Positions 10,130-27,186 of a DNA stretch of 31,251 nt are shown one piece after another. The stretch spans positions 1 to 31,251 of the IMG/VR virus record IMGVR_UViG_3300034954_000061. One strand, 5' to 3'. Position 1 is the first letter of the stretch; the number at the start of each line of letters is the position of its first letter. This stretch comes from a virus. Both the position numbers and the translations under genes were made by a program. The notes below the pieces were generated by a model that saw only the letters and a list, made by a program, of their open reading frames with translations, made no database searches and was not told the DNA's origin.

Positions 10130-11866
10130 TTAAGCACATTCGCGAATCCCAGTCTGCGGATCCACAAAGCACGCTTCGACTTTATCTTCTTCTTGAATTG
10201 GTTGAATCTCAGCCGTATCCTTCTTTTCTTCTTCCACGGTCGTAAGTACTCCGTATCGTTTACCACTGAGTCGGAACGTTGTACATCCTTTCGCCCCACC
10301 TTTCCAGGCATCCACGTAAACTTGCTTAAACTCCTCGTACCCAACATCGTCTCCTACATTACAAGTTTTAGAACAAGCACTATCTACATAATGCTGAGCT
10401 AATAGTAAAACAGATAAGTGCTCTTGTACTGTTGTCTCGTTAGCTGTTTTGCCTTCTACGCCTTTAGCGTATGCATAATCTTCTACACGTTCAACTTTAG
10501 GTCCTTCGAATGTTTGTATTGTTCTATCGTAGTAGTGGCTAAATACCGGCTCAATCCCTCCTGACACATTGTCAGCGACCAAGCTAATAGTGCCAGTAGG
10601 AGCGATAGAAGTAAGGTGCGAGTTTCTAATCCCATATTCTCTTATCAACTTCTTTACTGATTGTGGTAAACTTCTTACAAAGTTTGACTTTAAATATTCC
10701 TCTCTGTATAAAGGGAAAGGTCCTTTTTCTTTAGCTAATAATGCAGAAGCTTTATAACAATTGTCTCTAAGACAAGCAAATACTTTTTCTGCCCAGTCCA
10801 TAAACTCGTCTGATGCATAGGGTAATCCTAGCATTTCACCTGCATTAGCAAGACCAGTTACACCTAGTCCCATACGTCTTTTATCTTTTGCTTCATCAGA
10901 TTGCTGCTTTAATGGATATATAGTTCTATCAATAACATTATCCATAGCTCTTACAATTTTAGGTATGTCATCTTTAAACTGAGCAAAGTCAAACGTATTT
11001 TGTAAATCTTCTACTATGTATTTTGTTAAGTTAAAACTACCTAATAAGCAAGCTCCATATGGTGGCAATGGTTGTTCACCACAAGGGTTTGTTGCTACTA
11101 TTTCTTCACAGTAGTGTAGGTTATTCATTTCAGCTATACGATCTATAAACAACACACCAGGCTCTGCCCAGTCCCATGTAGATTCCATAATCTGATCCCA
11201 TAGCTTTTTAGCACATATGGTCTTATATGTTTTATGTTCAAACACTAAATCAAAAGAGCTATCATCAGTGTTTGTAAGCGCTTCCATAAACTTATCTGTT
11301 ATACCTACGCTAATATTAAAACCAGTAAGACGATCAGAATTGCGTTTAGCACTAACGAATTCCTCAATGTCCGGATGGTCGACCCTGAGGACACCCATCT
11401 GCGCCCCGCGTCGGTGTCCCGAACTAGCGATGGTCTGGCAGATAGAATCAAAGATGCCCATAAAGGAGACCGGACCACTAGCTTGGCTATCGAGCGATTT
11501 AATCTTATCGCCTCTGGGCCTGATTTTTGAGAAGTCGTAGCCAATCCCACCACCTCTGCGCATTGTTTCAGCTGCTTCACTTGCTTTCTCCATTATTGTA
11601 TTCATACTATCTTCTATAGTTCCTGATACAAAGCAGTTATAAGCTGTAGTTATTCGACTGCTTCCTATTGCAGATTGTACTCTACCAGCAGGTAAGAACC
11701 TCATATTACCTAATATATCTTTTAAACTAGATTTATGTTGATCGTCATCTGCCAAAGTTCTAGCTATTCTAGAAACCTTTTCGTTAAATGTTTCTTCTTT
11801 CTGGCAGTATTTCATCTTATCTATTTCTATAGATATTGGCTTTGTTGGTCCCTCGTACGTCTGCAT
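10130..11866 (-). CDS. nrdJ: Adenosylcobalamin-dependent (class II) ribonucleotide reductase
   Basis: This 578-aa enzyme reduces ribonucleotides to deoxyribonucleotides for phage DNA synthesis, using a B12-derived radical and no oxygen. Hallmarks are: redox Cys in AYNCFVSGT (C78), the RRGGGIGYDFS block (103-113), NPCGEQPLPPYGACLLGSFN (260-279) with thiyl-radical C262 and E264, the phosphate-binding IAPTGTIS (421-428), and a C-terminal Cys pair (C566, C577) for re-reduction by thioredoxin-like partners. It is compact compared with many bacterial NrdJ proteins. ATG at 11866 follows AGGAG at 11873-11877. Codon use is mosaic: GC-rich around residues 105-172 and at the C-terminus, AT-rich between. 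Placing it between lysis and tail genes ties its expression to the late operon. Confidence 0.95.
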   Translation of the reverse strand: MQTYEGPTKPISIEIDKMKYCQKEETFNEKVSRIARTLADDDQHKSSLKDILGNMRFLPAGRVQSAIGSSRITTAYNCFVSGTIEDSMNTIMEKASEAAETMRRGGGIGYDFSKIRPRGDKIKSLDSQASGPVSFMGIFDSICQTIASSGHRRGAQMGVLRVDHPDIEEFVSAKRNSDRLTGFNISVGITDKFMEALTNTDDSSFDLVFEHKTYKTICAKKLWDQIMESTWDWAEPGVLFIDRIAEMNNLHYCEEIVATNPCGEQPLPPYGACLLGSFNLTKYIVEDLQNTFDFAQFKDDIPKIVRAMDNVIDRTIYPLKQQSDEAKDKRRMGLGVTGLANAGEMLGLPYASDEFMDWAEKVFACLRDNCYKASALLAKEKGPFPLYREEYLKSNFVRSLPQSVKKLIREYGIRNSHLTSIAPTGTISLVADNVSGGIEPVFSHYYDRTIQTFEGPKVERVEDYAYAKGVEGKTANETTVQEHLSVLLLAQHYVDSACSKTCNVGDDVGYEEFKQVYVDAWKGGAKGCTTFRLSGKRYGVLTTVEEEKKDTAEIQPIQEEDKVEACFVDPQTGIRECA

Positions 11867-16761: not shown

Positions 16762-19203
16762 TTATTTCTCCATTAATACCCAGCCTTGCGCTGCATTTAC
16801 GTATACCAAGGCAAAACCAGCTCTTTCAGTAGATACAGTCATATCCGACGCTGCTCCTTGTATTTTGTGGCTATTTCTACCAATAGTTAAGTTATTACTA
16901 TCAAAAGATGCTGTATGATCTATAAAACGTATAGTATCTCCTAATGTTGCAGAACTAGGCAATGTTGCTGTTACAGCTGCACTAGATGTATCAACAAAGT
17001 ATCCACGACTAGCAGCAGCAGTAAATGCGCTTGTTTTAATTTCCCAAACAAAATCTTCTTGTAACGTAACAGAACCACCTAATGATACTGCTGAACCATT
17101 AATAGTTATACTACTATTTGCTAATTTATTATTAGCTATTGAACCTGCTAGTTTATCATTAGTAATTGACCCAGCTAATTTTGCATTTGTAATGCTTGGC
17201 AATCTATCAATGTTTATTGTACCACTATTGATTGCAGAACCAGCAACTGCCGCCACATTAAATGTACCAAAACCAACTATGTCTACCACATCGCCATTTG
17301 CCAGGGCAGACGCAAAAGTAACTGTATCACCACTTGTTACAGTAACGTCAGTTCCGTTGACTTGCTTGACTCCATTTAAAAACACATCAATAAATCCGGC
17401 ATCGTATGCTAAAGTGTTGCCGTTTGCGTCAGCTCCTGTTACTGATGTTGGTGTACCAGATATATTATAAGTAAATCGAGCAGAAGTTCCGTTTATTGTA
17501 GAACCAGCCGCCGCCCAACCAGATGACTTATACACCTTCAGCTCATTAGCAGTCGTATCAAAATACAAATCACCAACATCTAGTGATGAGGTCGGTGCAG
17601 AAGATGCGATTCTGTATCTATCAGCAAATGAATTAACACCACTTACATTATTTGCTACAGTGGTCACGTTTGACGAAATGCCAGCTACTGTTGCTATGTT
17701 ACCAACTACGCCACTTGCTCCAAGAGTAGCCATGTTTGTAACATTGGCACTTGTTGCTAGTAAATTCATATCTGTAACAGCATCACTTGTTCCTAATAAT
17801 GCCATGTCAGCAATAACATCACTTGTTGCAAGCAATGCCATATCAGCTATTACATCAGAAGTTCCTAGTAATGCCATATCAGCAACAACGTCAGTAGTTC
17901 CTAATAATGCCATATCTGTAATAACATCACTTGCAGCTAAAGCAGTAATGTTAGCATTAGCTCCTGCAACTGTATTTATGTTACTTATAGATCCAGCAAC
18001 TAATGATATATTACTATCTTTAACAGTAATAGTATTACCCATACCATTACCATGAACATAACAATAGTATCTTAAACCACTGCTAGGCGCGTTAGAAGCC
18101 ACCTCTATTTGAACTTTACGTACTCCTGAACTTCTACCAGCATTAAATGTTGTAGTGTTTACGTAATTAGATTGTGTGGCCTCTGATCCATTTAGAAAAT
18201 ATGTTACTCCTATTTCATAAGCCGAGCTACCATTCTTAAACACTAATGGATGACCATCGTTAGTAGCATCACTTTGATTAAAAATGTAAGTGTTACCTCT
18301 AAACATTTCAATAGCTGGTGCATTACCATCAGATCCTAATACAAATACGTTACCAGAACCTGGATTTGTAACTGTAACTGTGTAAGTCTTTTCTAAACTG
18401 TTAGCAAGAGACGTCACATCACTAGCTATATTTGCAACACTAGTTACATTAGAGCTAATACCACCTACTGTGTTAATATTTGTAGCGTTTCCTGCTACTG
18501 CAGTAATATTTGAGTTAGCTGCTGCTACTGTATTAATATTTGTTTGTTCAGAGCTAGTCGGTTTTACATCTTCCCATGCAGATCCGGTATAAACTTTCAT
18601 ACCATCGCCAGTTTTAAAGTATAAAGCACCTGTAGCTAGTGCATCTCCATCATTATCGGTTGACGGATCACTACTTTTAGCCCCTAAATACCTATCATCA
18701 AAACTATCAAAGCTGTTTGCAGCAGCTGTGGCACTAGTAGCTGCCGCAGATGCGCTCGAAAGGGCAGAGTTGGCTTGTGTTGTGGCATTTGTGGCCTGAG
18801 TTGACGCTGTTGAAGCTGAATCTGCTGCGTTCGATGCACTAGTTGCTGCATTTGTTTCACTTGTAGCAGCATTTGTCGCGTTTGTTGTAATAGTAGACAC
18901 AGCATTACTAGCTGTTGTGGCGCTACCTGCTGCAGCGGTTGCGCTTGAAGCTGCTGCAGTTGCAGAACCAGCTGCTGCGGTTGCAGAAGTTGATGCTTCT
19001 GTAGCTTTTGTTGTGGCGGTTGTTGCCTGTGTGGTAGCTGTAGTAGCAGAAGCGGCTGCATTAGTTGCAGAAGTTTGCGCAGATGCAACGTCTGCTGCAA
19101 CAAGATCGGGTATCCCATCAATTTTTGAGTCAGTAAATAAACCACCATTAGCTTCATTGTCTGTAGCTCCTGTAAACTGACCTGGTCGTGCTGGTGTTGT
19201 CAT
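16762..19203 (-). CDS. Long tail fibre with Ala/Ser/Thr stalk, cupredoxin-like domain and 12-residue repeats, 813 aa
   Basis: The ATG overlaps the adaptor stop as TAATG. Residues 38-165 are an Ala/Ser/Thr helical stalk. Residues 166-215 carry FDDRYLGAKSSDP...DNDGDALATGALYF, a common marine fibre block, echoed at 525-565 (FADRYRIASSAP). Residues about 271-398 look like a cupredoxin-type beta-sandwich with H318, C381, H384 and M388 in blue-copper order. Residues 425-500 hold six to seven 12-residue units (DVIADMALLGTS). Then come a FIDVFLNGVKQVNG domain, three NxKLAGSI-type repeats (673-695) and a beta-rich end that may form the tip. The N-terminal stalk start probably attaches to the tail. Confidence 0.85.
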   Translation of the reverse strand: MTTPARPGQFTGATDNEANGGLFTDSKIDGIPDLVAADVASAQTSATNAAASATTATTQATTATTKATEASTSATAAAGSATAAASSATAAAGSATTASNAVSTITTNATNAATSETNAATSASNAADSASTASTQATNATTQANSALSSASAAATSATAAANSFDSFDDRYLGAKSSDPSTDNDGDALATGALYFKTGDGMKVYTGSAWEDVKPTSSEQTNINTVAAANSNITAVAGNATNINTVGGISSNVTSVANIASDVTSLANSLEKTYTVTVTNPGSGNVFVLGSDGNAPAIEMFRGNTYIFNQSDATNDGHPLVFKNGSSAYEIGVTYFLNGSEATQSNYVNTTTFNAGRSSGVRKVQIEVASNAPSSGLRYYCYVHGNGMGNTITVKDSNISLVAGSISNINTVAGANANITALAASDVITDMALLGTTDVVADMALLGTSDVIADMALLATSDVIADMALLGTSDAVTDMNLLATSANVTNMATLGASGVVGNIATVAGISSNVTTVANNVSGVNSFADRYRIASSAPTSSLDVGDLYFDTTANELKVYKSSGWAAAGSTINGTSARFTYNISGTPTSVTGADANGNTLAYDAGFIDVFLNGVKQVNGTDVTVTSGDTVTFASALANGDVVDIVGFGTFNVAAVAGSAINSGTINIDRLPSITNAKLAGSITNDKLAGSIANNKLANSSITINGSAVSLGGSVTLQEDFVWEIKTSAFTAAASRGYFVDTSSAAVTATLPSSATLGDTIRFIDHTASFDSNNLTIGRNSHKIQGAASDMTVSTERAGFALVYVNAAQGWVLMEK
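17704..17931 (-). repeat. 36-bp repeats encoding 12-residue units in the long tail fibre
   Basis: Six in-frame units, plus a decayed seventh, encode variants of DVIADMALLGTS at residues 425-500. The inner four are closest; the last ones drift (ANVTNMATLGAS, GVVGNIATVAG). The DNA differs at third positions. Units of this length often form a regular trimeric stalk. Copy number could change by slippage. Confidence 0.75.
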
Positions 19204-25049: not shown

Positions 25050-27186
25050 TTTTTCCTCCTAAAATGCTACTTGCCATCATTAATATTTCGTCATAGCTCG
25101 GATGAGGTGGTATTTGTGCCCCTTCCTTCTGAGCTTTAACACTAAGTTCTGCCCATTGCTGAAAATGTTTATCTATAGCAACAGCTAGTTGTCTAGCATT
25201 ATCGTCCATAGTATTTTTAGCTTGAGCGTTTGTATAGGCAACATTGGCTTCTTGTAACTTAACATCACTCATTGCTTTTTGCATAGCCGCGTCTCTAGTT
25301 GTTTTAGCGGCTTGCGATTGCAACTGTATTGCTTTCATAGCTTTTTGCCTAAACTCGTCTTTATTATAATCTTCTAAAAAATCGTTACTATCTAAATTCA
25401 TAGCTTCTATTATTTTAGTAGCTAATACTGCAGGAGCTTCTGGCTTTATAGCCATACCTGCTCCTTGTTTATTTAAAGCCGGGAGAACTTCTGCACCTAT
25501 TTGTCTCAACTTGTTTAGTCGAGTGCTGTTACTATTTTCTCCTATATCAAGAAGAATTTCAACTTCCATCTTACTTGGTAGTGCGTTCATATCTATAGTT
25601 TTGTATACATTATTCATATTAAAAGAAAGTTTTCTTTTCATATTTTTATGCATAGTAGTATAGACCCCAGCAATTAACCGCTTAAATCCTGTTTCAGCAA
25701 ATCTCCGCGCAATATGAGATATACGCTTCTGGGCTGCTGATTGAACAGCGGCAAATTTTTGCTCAGAGTTACCTGATACGTACAAAGTATCATTAAGACC
25801 TTGTACTGTTTTACTCATACCTGTAGCTTGTTCTTTTATTGTTTGTAAATGATTTAATAAAGGAACTGTACCTGTAGATATAGTTTCAGGTGGTAGAGTT
25901 GTTACTGATCCTTGCGGATTACCGTTTGTAGGTATAATCTGCTTTGGTTTCATGTTTTGTAAAGCAGAAAAATCTACTACGTTTGGATCAGCAAGCTTTG
26001 GAGCATAGTTAGTTAGGTAAGTATTTTCTACAAAACCTCTTAATATTGCTGTGTTTGCTAATGTAGAGCTTCTTGTAAAGTCTGCCATTGACAAACCATA
26101 AAACTCAAATGGTATATCAATAGGAACTATAGAAGCTAGTGGTATTTCATCAACGTCATTTTCATATATAATATGATTACCAATAGTCATGATGTGTTTT
26201 AGCTCAGCAATACCATCTCCATCTCTATCTACTCTTATCCAGCATTCTGTAACGTTTACATTTATATTTGCTTCTAATGGTACTTCATATGATTCAGCAG
26301 ATCCTTGCCAATACTCTTGCCCTGTTACATGCTTTCTAGCTGCAACATCTTGTGAGTACTTAGCAGAACCTAACCATGAAGTATCATGCATAGTATCAAA
26401 ATCTATATCATCAGATACTTCTGGATAATACTTTCGTATTTCAGATCTTGACATTTGTGTCTGTATTCCTACAAACTGAGCATCAGATATACATGTAGAC
26501 TCTCGTGATATTCTAAAATTTTCTGGTGGTATTAGTTCTAGTTTTACTTTAGACTTATCTATTTTCTTTCTAACTCTAACGTCAACATAAACTAATTCTA
26601 ATTCATCTTCCTGTGTTATTTCAGATTTAACAGGTCTGTTTTCAAACTCTAATTCTCCAATAACTTCTACATTGTCATCAGCTAATATTTCATCTAGTTT
26701 TACCTGTGTTATTTCTTCGTAATCTTCAAACACATAATCGTAATCTTCTACAAAGTCCCATCTACATACAGAGTTTTTCCATAGTAAAGCAGCTTTAATC
26801 CATTGTGACATAAACTCCCAACCATTGTTTTGTTTAAACATACAATAGTTAACTATATCACTAGCGTCTTTTGCAGACTTAAATGCTGCTGGACTATCAT
26901 CGTAAGGCACAAACCTAGCTAGCTTATGATTATTTAAAAACAAATCAGATAAAATAGCAGTGTATGCTTCTATAACTTCAGTAGTAGAAGTATCAACAAT
27001 AGTGGAAACTCCTTGTGGTGATAAATGATCTGACGGAACTCCAGCGTATTCATAAGTTGCTTTCAGTCTTTCTCTAGCTAAGTCAGAACTATTAAGAAAG
27101 TCACCAGTACTGTTTTGAACTCCCATTTCGATAAGATTAATGAGTTGCTCGTCGGTAACTGGTTCTTTATAACCGTACCTTTTCAT
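25030..27186 (-). CDS. Portal protein (P22/SU10-like large portal), 718 aa
   Basis: A 718-aa protein placed between the terminase/lysis genes and the scaffold/capsid genes. Typical portal segments include RARLKATYEYAG-like start (here ERLKATYEYAGVPS), VDTSTTEVIEAYTAIL, and a wing and stem region with TECWIRVDRDGDGIAELKHI. The stem/crown part has IPFEFYGLSMADFTRSS and LNHLQTIKEQATGMSKTVQG. A long helical C-terminus (about 600-690) would form the barrel inside the head. The DRDGDGIAE stretch (D320, D322, D324, E328) is like a calcium-binding loop, common in such portals. The ATG overlaps the previous stop as TAATG. Confidence 0.88.
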   Translation of the reverse strand: MKRYGYKEPVTDEQLINLIEMGVQNSTGDFLNSSDLARERLKATYEYAGVPSDHLSPQGVSTIVDTSTTEVIEAYTAILSDLFLNNHKLARFVPYDDSPAAFKSAKDASDIVNYCMFKQNNGWEFMSQWIKAALLWKNSVCRWDFVEDYDYVFEDYEEITQVKLDEILADDNVEVIGELEFENRPVKSEITQEDELELVYVDVRVRKKIDKSKVKLELIPPENFRISRESTCISDAQFVGIQTQMSRSEIRKYYPEVSDDIDFDTMHDTSWLGSAKYSQDVAARKHVTGQEYWQGSAESYEVPLEANINVNVTECWIRVDRDGDGIAELKHIMTIGNHIIYENDVDEIPLASIVPIDIPFEFYGLSMADFTRSSTLANTAILRGFVENTYLTNYAPKLADPNVVDFSALQNMKPKQIIPTNGNPQGSVTTLPPETISTGTVPLLNHLQTIKEQATGMSKTVQGLNDTLYVSGNSEQKFAAVQSAAQKRISHIARRFAETGFKRLIAGVYTTMHKNMKRKLSFNMNNVYKTIDMNALPSKMEVEILLDIGENSNSTRLNKLRQIGAEVLPALNKQGAGMAIKPEAPAVLATKIIEAMNLDSNDFLEDYNKDEFRQKAMKAIQLQSQAAKTTRDAAMQKAMSDVKLQEANVAYTNAQAKNTMDDNARQLAVAIDKHFQQWAELSVKAQKEGAQIPPHPSYDEILMMASSILGGKNGNSNN

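Follow-up and report, generated by a model that had tools for sequence, protein, structure and literature searches.

A putative copper-binding cupredoxin-fold module in a phage tail fibre and its relatives in tail proteins of other marine phages

The window, which is the whole 31,251-base virus contig analysed here, contains an open reading frame with an ATG start on the minus strand (16762..19203) that encodes an 813-aa protein. The protein is assigned as a tail fibre from its translation, from the PHROG tail-fibre families that cover both of its ends (phrog_38058, 3.5e-41, and phrog_21412, 7.5e-37) and from its location in a block of head and tail genes; the neighbouring genes encode a terminase, a portal, a scaffold, the major head protein and a tail collar protein. 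The nearest relative of the portal and capsid proteins is Roseobacter phage CRP-7 (about 52% identity), and so the record probably represents a marine short-tailed phage. A gene for the large subunit of ribonucleotide reductase (10130-11866, minus strand) is present among the virion structural genes.

Residues 271-398 of the fibre form a distinct segment (18010..18393, minus strand) that has shaft repeats on either side. On the N-terminal side these are of the N-I-N/T-x-V-A type and occupy residues 222-270 (18394..18540, minus strand), and on the C-terminal side they occupy residues 399-434 (17902..18009, minus strand); both sets were delimited from the sequence and from a sibling fibre, L261. 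Repeats of the DMALLGTSDVIA type, recognised in the sequence, occupy residues 425-498 (17710..17931, minus strand). The segment, which occurs once in the record, was delimited as a cupredoxin-fold module with an AlphaFold2 model and Foldseek. The initial annotation had placed this domain at 18010-18390; the start is correct and the end lies 3 bases further.

Four residues of the module are predicted copper ligands, and all of them are at the positions originally given. They are, on the minus strand, H318 (18250..18252), the second residue of a GHPLVF motif that starts at residue 317, followed by C381 (18061..18063), H384 (18052..18054) and M388 (18040..18042), which belong to a stretch, RYYCYVHGNGMGN, starting at residue 378. 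C381 would be the thiolate ligand and M388 the axial one. The spacing in the window copy is H-x62-C and C-x2-H-x3-M. The corresponding ligands are H37, C84, H87 and M92 in plastocyanin and H53, C92, H95 and M98 in amicyanin (PMC517927), and so the H-x3-M of the window copy is intermediate between amicyanin (x2) and plastocyanin (x4). The order of the type 1 blue copper ligands (His, Cys, His and Met or Gln, the last three on one loop) is thus found here, as was originally proposed by comparison with plastocyanin.

A short motif of this kind could be due to chance or to a false reading of the open reading frame in a low-complexity fibre, and the fibre outside the module is indeed rich in Ala, Ser and Thr. 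However, C-x2-H-x(2-4)-M has just nine occurrences among 356,047 residues from open reading frames that were listed mechanically and have no detected domain, and four of these nine are unrecognised gp9 copies of the same domain; the background is about 0.01 per 813-aa protein. In addition, each of 60 close relatives has all four ligands, and the structural models described below are confident. Chance is therefore an extremely improbable explanation, and it is refuted by the conservation.

The wider conservation was evaluated in a 79-row alignment of fibres, baseplate proteins and cellular proteins, with a mean column identity of 31%; the ligand-less gp7 copies discussed below were kept out of this alignment and tallied separately. 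The four ligand columns (H48, C111, H114 and M118 in domain numbering) are the four most conserved ones (79, 79, 79 and 78 of 79), level with or above every structural Gly, Pro and Phe, and the only row without the Met is cut at the end of the match. Exactly one Cys per domain, the predicted ligand, is present in 78 of the 79 members, which rules out an intradomain disulphide. The codons for the His and Cys residues differ synonymously among the members, e.g., both CAT and CAC occur for the first His. Together, the strong conservation of the ligands and the synonymous variation of their codons imply purifying selection rather than recent ancestry.

Profile searches gave a similar picture. The full ligand set is at the aligned columns in 180 of 193 matches, and in the rest the alignment is shifted, the contig ends or the copy is ligand-less. 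A second viral scan was selected on the first-His motif alone, so that the conservation of C-x2-H-x-M in that scan is independent of the selection. The ligand loop has eight residues in 138 copies and seven residues in 21 copies, the latter being the length found in amicyanin (C92-H95-M98; PMC517927).

The window domain, modelled with AlphaFold2 and 25 homologues, consists mainly of strands and has a pLDDT of 93.7 and a pTM of 0.88. When this model was compared to the PDB with Foldseek, type 1 copper proteins (CueO, two-domain laccases and rusticyanin) made up most of the best matches, with modest TM scores to cupredoxins of 0.38-0.59; the list also contains a small number of beta folds other than cupredoxins (PADI chains). 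The window copy is a long form in which a helical insertion separates the first His from the Cys. Sibling fibres have a compact form that does without this insertion, and its AlphaFold2 model (pLDDT 95.8) has copper nitrite reductase 2dv6 as its best PDB match (TM 0.71, E 1.7e-5), followed by rusticyanin (E 1.7e-4), plastocyanin 3cvb (TM 0.58), pseudoazurin and laccases. In the models the first His is located ahead of a strand, the Cys at the end of a strand and the second His and the Met toward the last strand; these positions agree with plastocyanin, in topology alone. Hence both predicted forms resemble solved cupredoxins in the Foldseek comparisons, and the all-beta sandwich that the initial annotation had anticipated is what structure prediction returns.

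Sequence-based searches are less informative. The window copy has no match in Pfam or NCBIfam and so falls short of the curated cut-offs of PF00127 (Copper-bind) and PF13473 (Cupredoxin_1), for which the best E-values of any member are 0.0015 and 0.0047, respectively; single members have weak links to SoxE (1.6e-4) and to the NCBIfam plastocyanin model (0.0019). In phmmer and hmmsearch searches against the PDB, cupredoxins were not singled out (plastocyanins had E-values of 0.14-0.95 and antibodies scored as well or better), and since these sequence-only searches were insignificant, the fold comparison was used instead. No one cupredoxin family was linked to the domain by evidence of homology at the alignment level. 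None of the 79 members matches PROSITE PS00196 when its pattern is written as a regular expression, which also barred S, E, D or T directly before the Cys. The pattern, [GA]-x(0,2)-[YSA]-x(0,1)-[VFY]-x-C-x(1,2)-[PG]-x(0,1)-H-x(2,4)-[MQ] (PMC517927), demands that the second His be preceded by Pro or Gly, and this preceding residue is mostly V in the phage domain; therefore, the copies are missed by the signature. No description of a cupredoxin or copper domain in phage tails was found in the open-access literature, which was the scope of the search.

Some cyanophage baseplate copies retain the domain and have lost the C, H and M together, and usually the first His as well. These ligand-less gp7 copies are present in S-CAM22, S-RIM2, ACG-2014b and P-SSM7 (L088, L089, L094 and L095), plus a few others. 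In these four loci, ligand-bearing copies adjoin ligand-less ones within the same gp7 protein. Among the named phages, the first His is present in 25 of 25 copies that have C-x2-H-x-M and is also lost in six of the eight copies that do not have the C, H and M. A Fisher test on these counts, which were tallied by hand and without phylogenetic correction, gives p 2.5e-5 for joint presence or loss, a value that is overstated because the gp7 rows are orthologues and not independent. The suggestion that the domain might be a retired fold consequently does not apply to the window copy, whose ligands are conserved, and probably does apply to the few gp7 copies that have lost them.

The persistence of the gp7 and other structural copies without ligands in S-CAM22, S-RIM2, ACG-2014b and P-SSM7 indicates that the domain can exist without them, and antibody folds are among the weak profile matches. 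One could thus imagine a metal-free, Ig-like decoration in which packing or some other requirement maintains the Cys, His and Met. We regard this as very unlikely, since no residue of the domain is better conserved than the ligands and C, H and M are lost jointly, which packing does not explain. The pattern of loss also agrees with the homologue comparison as a whole, in that the four residues are not lost freely.

If a metal is bound, its identity has to be considered. Overexpressed Cys-His2-Met sites can take other metals, and the cytosol in which the phage is assembled has more available Zn than Cu, so that Zn, Ni or Cd could serve as a purely structural clamp in which copper is not special. 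However, Met is seldom kept in structural Zn sites, yet it is present in 78 of the 79 members here, and one Cys, two His and an axial Met in a cupredoxin fold are the type 1 Cu set (PMC517927). Another soft metal is consequently quite unlikely in our opinion. Judged from the ligand residues and the predicted fold, the domain very probably binds copper. What counts against copper is the cytosol in which phage proteins fold, which is poor in this metal.

The initial annotation treated the domain as a single instance in one fibre; the instance is real and the domain is in fact widespread in tail proteins of marine phages. A tblastn search found it in 227 phage records at E < 1e-3, mostly T4-like cyanophages (in the gp7 baseplate wedge); other carriers include a Pelagibacter phage and Methylophilales phages. 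Pelagibacter phage EXVC032P Baldr and Prochlorococcus phage P-HM2 are examples of cultured phages that possess the module. The T4-like cyanophages have one to five copies each, in gp7, in the gp9 tail-fibre connector and in other structural proteins. Tandem pairs of the domain occur within one viral protein in L069, L070, L112, L113 and L124, and a cyanophage protein (L222, P-SSM2 25544-25837) has the domain with collagen-like GPT repeats on either side. Among predicted viral structures (BFVD) there are 58 matches, mostly cyanophage tail proteins and a few proteins from deep-sea giant viruses. The latter include A0A481Z7Q7, A0A481YXP1 and others, which are "beta-sandwich" proteins of Pithovirus LCPAC and Marseillevirus LCMAC that have a domain of similar structure.

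Contigs catalogued as cellular also have the domain, in phage-like proteins (e.g., L176) and in lipoproteins of Marine Group II archaea. The archaeal proteins (L184-L197, e.g., L191:2290-3312) combine a lipobox and collagen-like Gly repeats with a C-terminal H...C-x2-H-x2-M domain. The domain thus recurs on trimeric-type stalks of both cells and phages.

Among 80 fibres that share the C-terminal part of the window fibre, the module is present in 13 and absent in 67, a few of which end at a contig edge, and in the sibling fibre L261, where it is absent, the shaft repeats continue through the insertion point. These observations imply that the domain is a mobile and dispensable module.

Our preferred explanation, which we consider rather likely, is that the cupredoxin-fold module, with its type 1 set of copper ligands, decorates the fibre in a copper-loaded state and has a stabilising or adhesive function. 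The module is inserted between the repeats of the shaft in a tail fibre that is presumably trimeric, and one Cu per chain would give three per fibre. The copper would most likely be acquired extracellularly or upon lysis, given that the cytosol has little free Cu. Once bound, the Cu would clamp the ligand loop and so stiffen the domain, which would stand out from the shaft and serve as a stable decoration or as a surface for adhesion. This would not call for electron transfer, an unlikely role because no partner for it is known.

Another role for the copper would be as a Trojan horse, in which the Cu-loaded domain passes for a small cuproprotein or a Cu ligand and is seized by a copper-uptake or cuproprotein-docking protein on the host surface. 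The ligand set is intact and under strong selection, many marine phages have the domain on their fibres or elsewhere in the tail, and an iron analogue has been proposed (the Ferrojan hypothesis, described in PMC11705849). However, the domain is also present in the baseplate proteins gp7 and gp9, which have less direct contact with the host, and most of the sibling fibres do without the module. We therefore consider this explanation unlikely. By analogy, it is nonetheless possible that copper is used directly, e.g., in docking on a copper-handling surface protein of the host.

Whichever role applies, virus particles bearing the module would probably carry copper, judging from the ligand set. 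If so, very common marine virus particles carry a cuproprotein domain that standard annotation overlooks, which would be relevant to host recognition, to the stability of fibres in seawater and to the speciation of oceanic copper. One can tentatively go further and suggest that abundant marine phages (pelagiphage-like podoviruses, T4-like cyanophages and Methylophilales phages) have virions that are copper metalloproteins and use Cu in infection, either for docking to receptors on host surfaces that handle copper or in a redox or thiolate switch, although we have considerable doubts about this. Phage particles would then be a pool of copper ligands in the ocean, and copper in phage fibres would parallel the proposal of iron in phage tails.

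The known systems most similar to the module are the type 1 cupredoxins, for which we considered plastocyanin, amicyanin, rusticyanin, pseudoazurin and the cupredoxin domains of copper nitrite reductase and laccases. The phage domain shares with them the all-beta sandwich (by Foldseek), the ligand order H...C-x2-H-x(2-3)-M and, in the models, the placing of the first ligand before a strand and of the other three on a loop between the last two strands. It differs in that it is embedded in a virion fibre and is no soluble electron carrier, in that it does not have the proline or glycine of CxPH and has a loop of eight or seven residues and, in the long form, a helical insertion, and in the low identity of about 6-19% in the Foldseek alignments.

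The PetE plastocyanin of cyanophages has the same fold class and ligand order and is found in similar marine phages (400 records). However, PetE is a separate small protein, and the phage module has no sign of capture from petE; an origin from this gene is unsupported, with hhalign giving a probability of 2.8% over 18 columns around C/H/M only. The At5g54830-like domain of Pfam (PF25489) weakly matches nine of the 79 members (best E 2.1e-4), but the individually listed copies are under the curated Pfam cut-off and the window copy has no match.

Two other comparisons concern tail proteins. The HxH iron-binding fibres of T4 (gp37) and Alteromonas phage R22Y also have metal ligands in a tail fibre and a marine setting, but they hold iron between the chains of the trimer with paired His residues as the sole ligands (PMC11705849), whereas the module is a separate folded domain with a predicted Cys/His/Met site within one chain. 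Finally, the module resembles the mobile Ig-like and other decoration modules of phage tails in its presence or absence between shaft repeats, its tandem copies and its occurrence in both fibres and baseplates, but it is set apart by its fold and by the conservation of a metal-type site.
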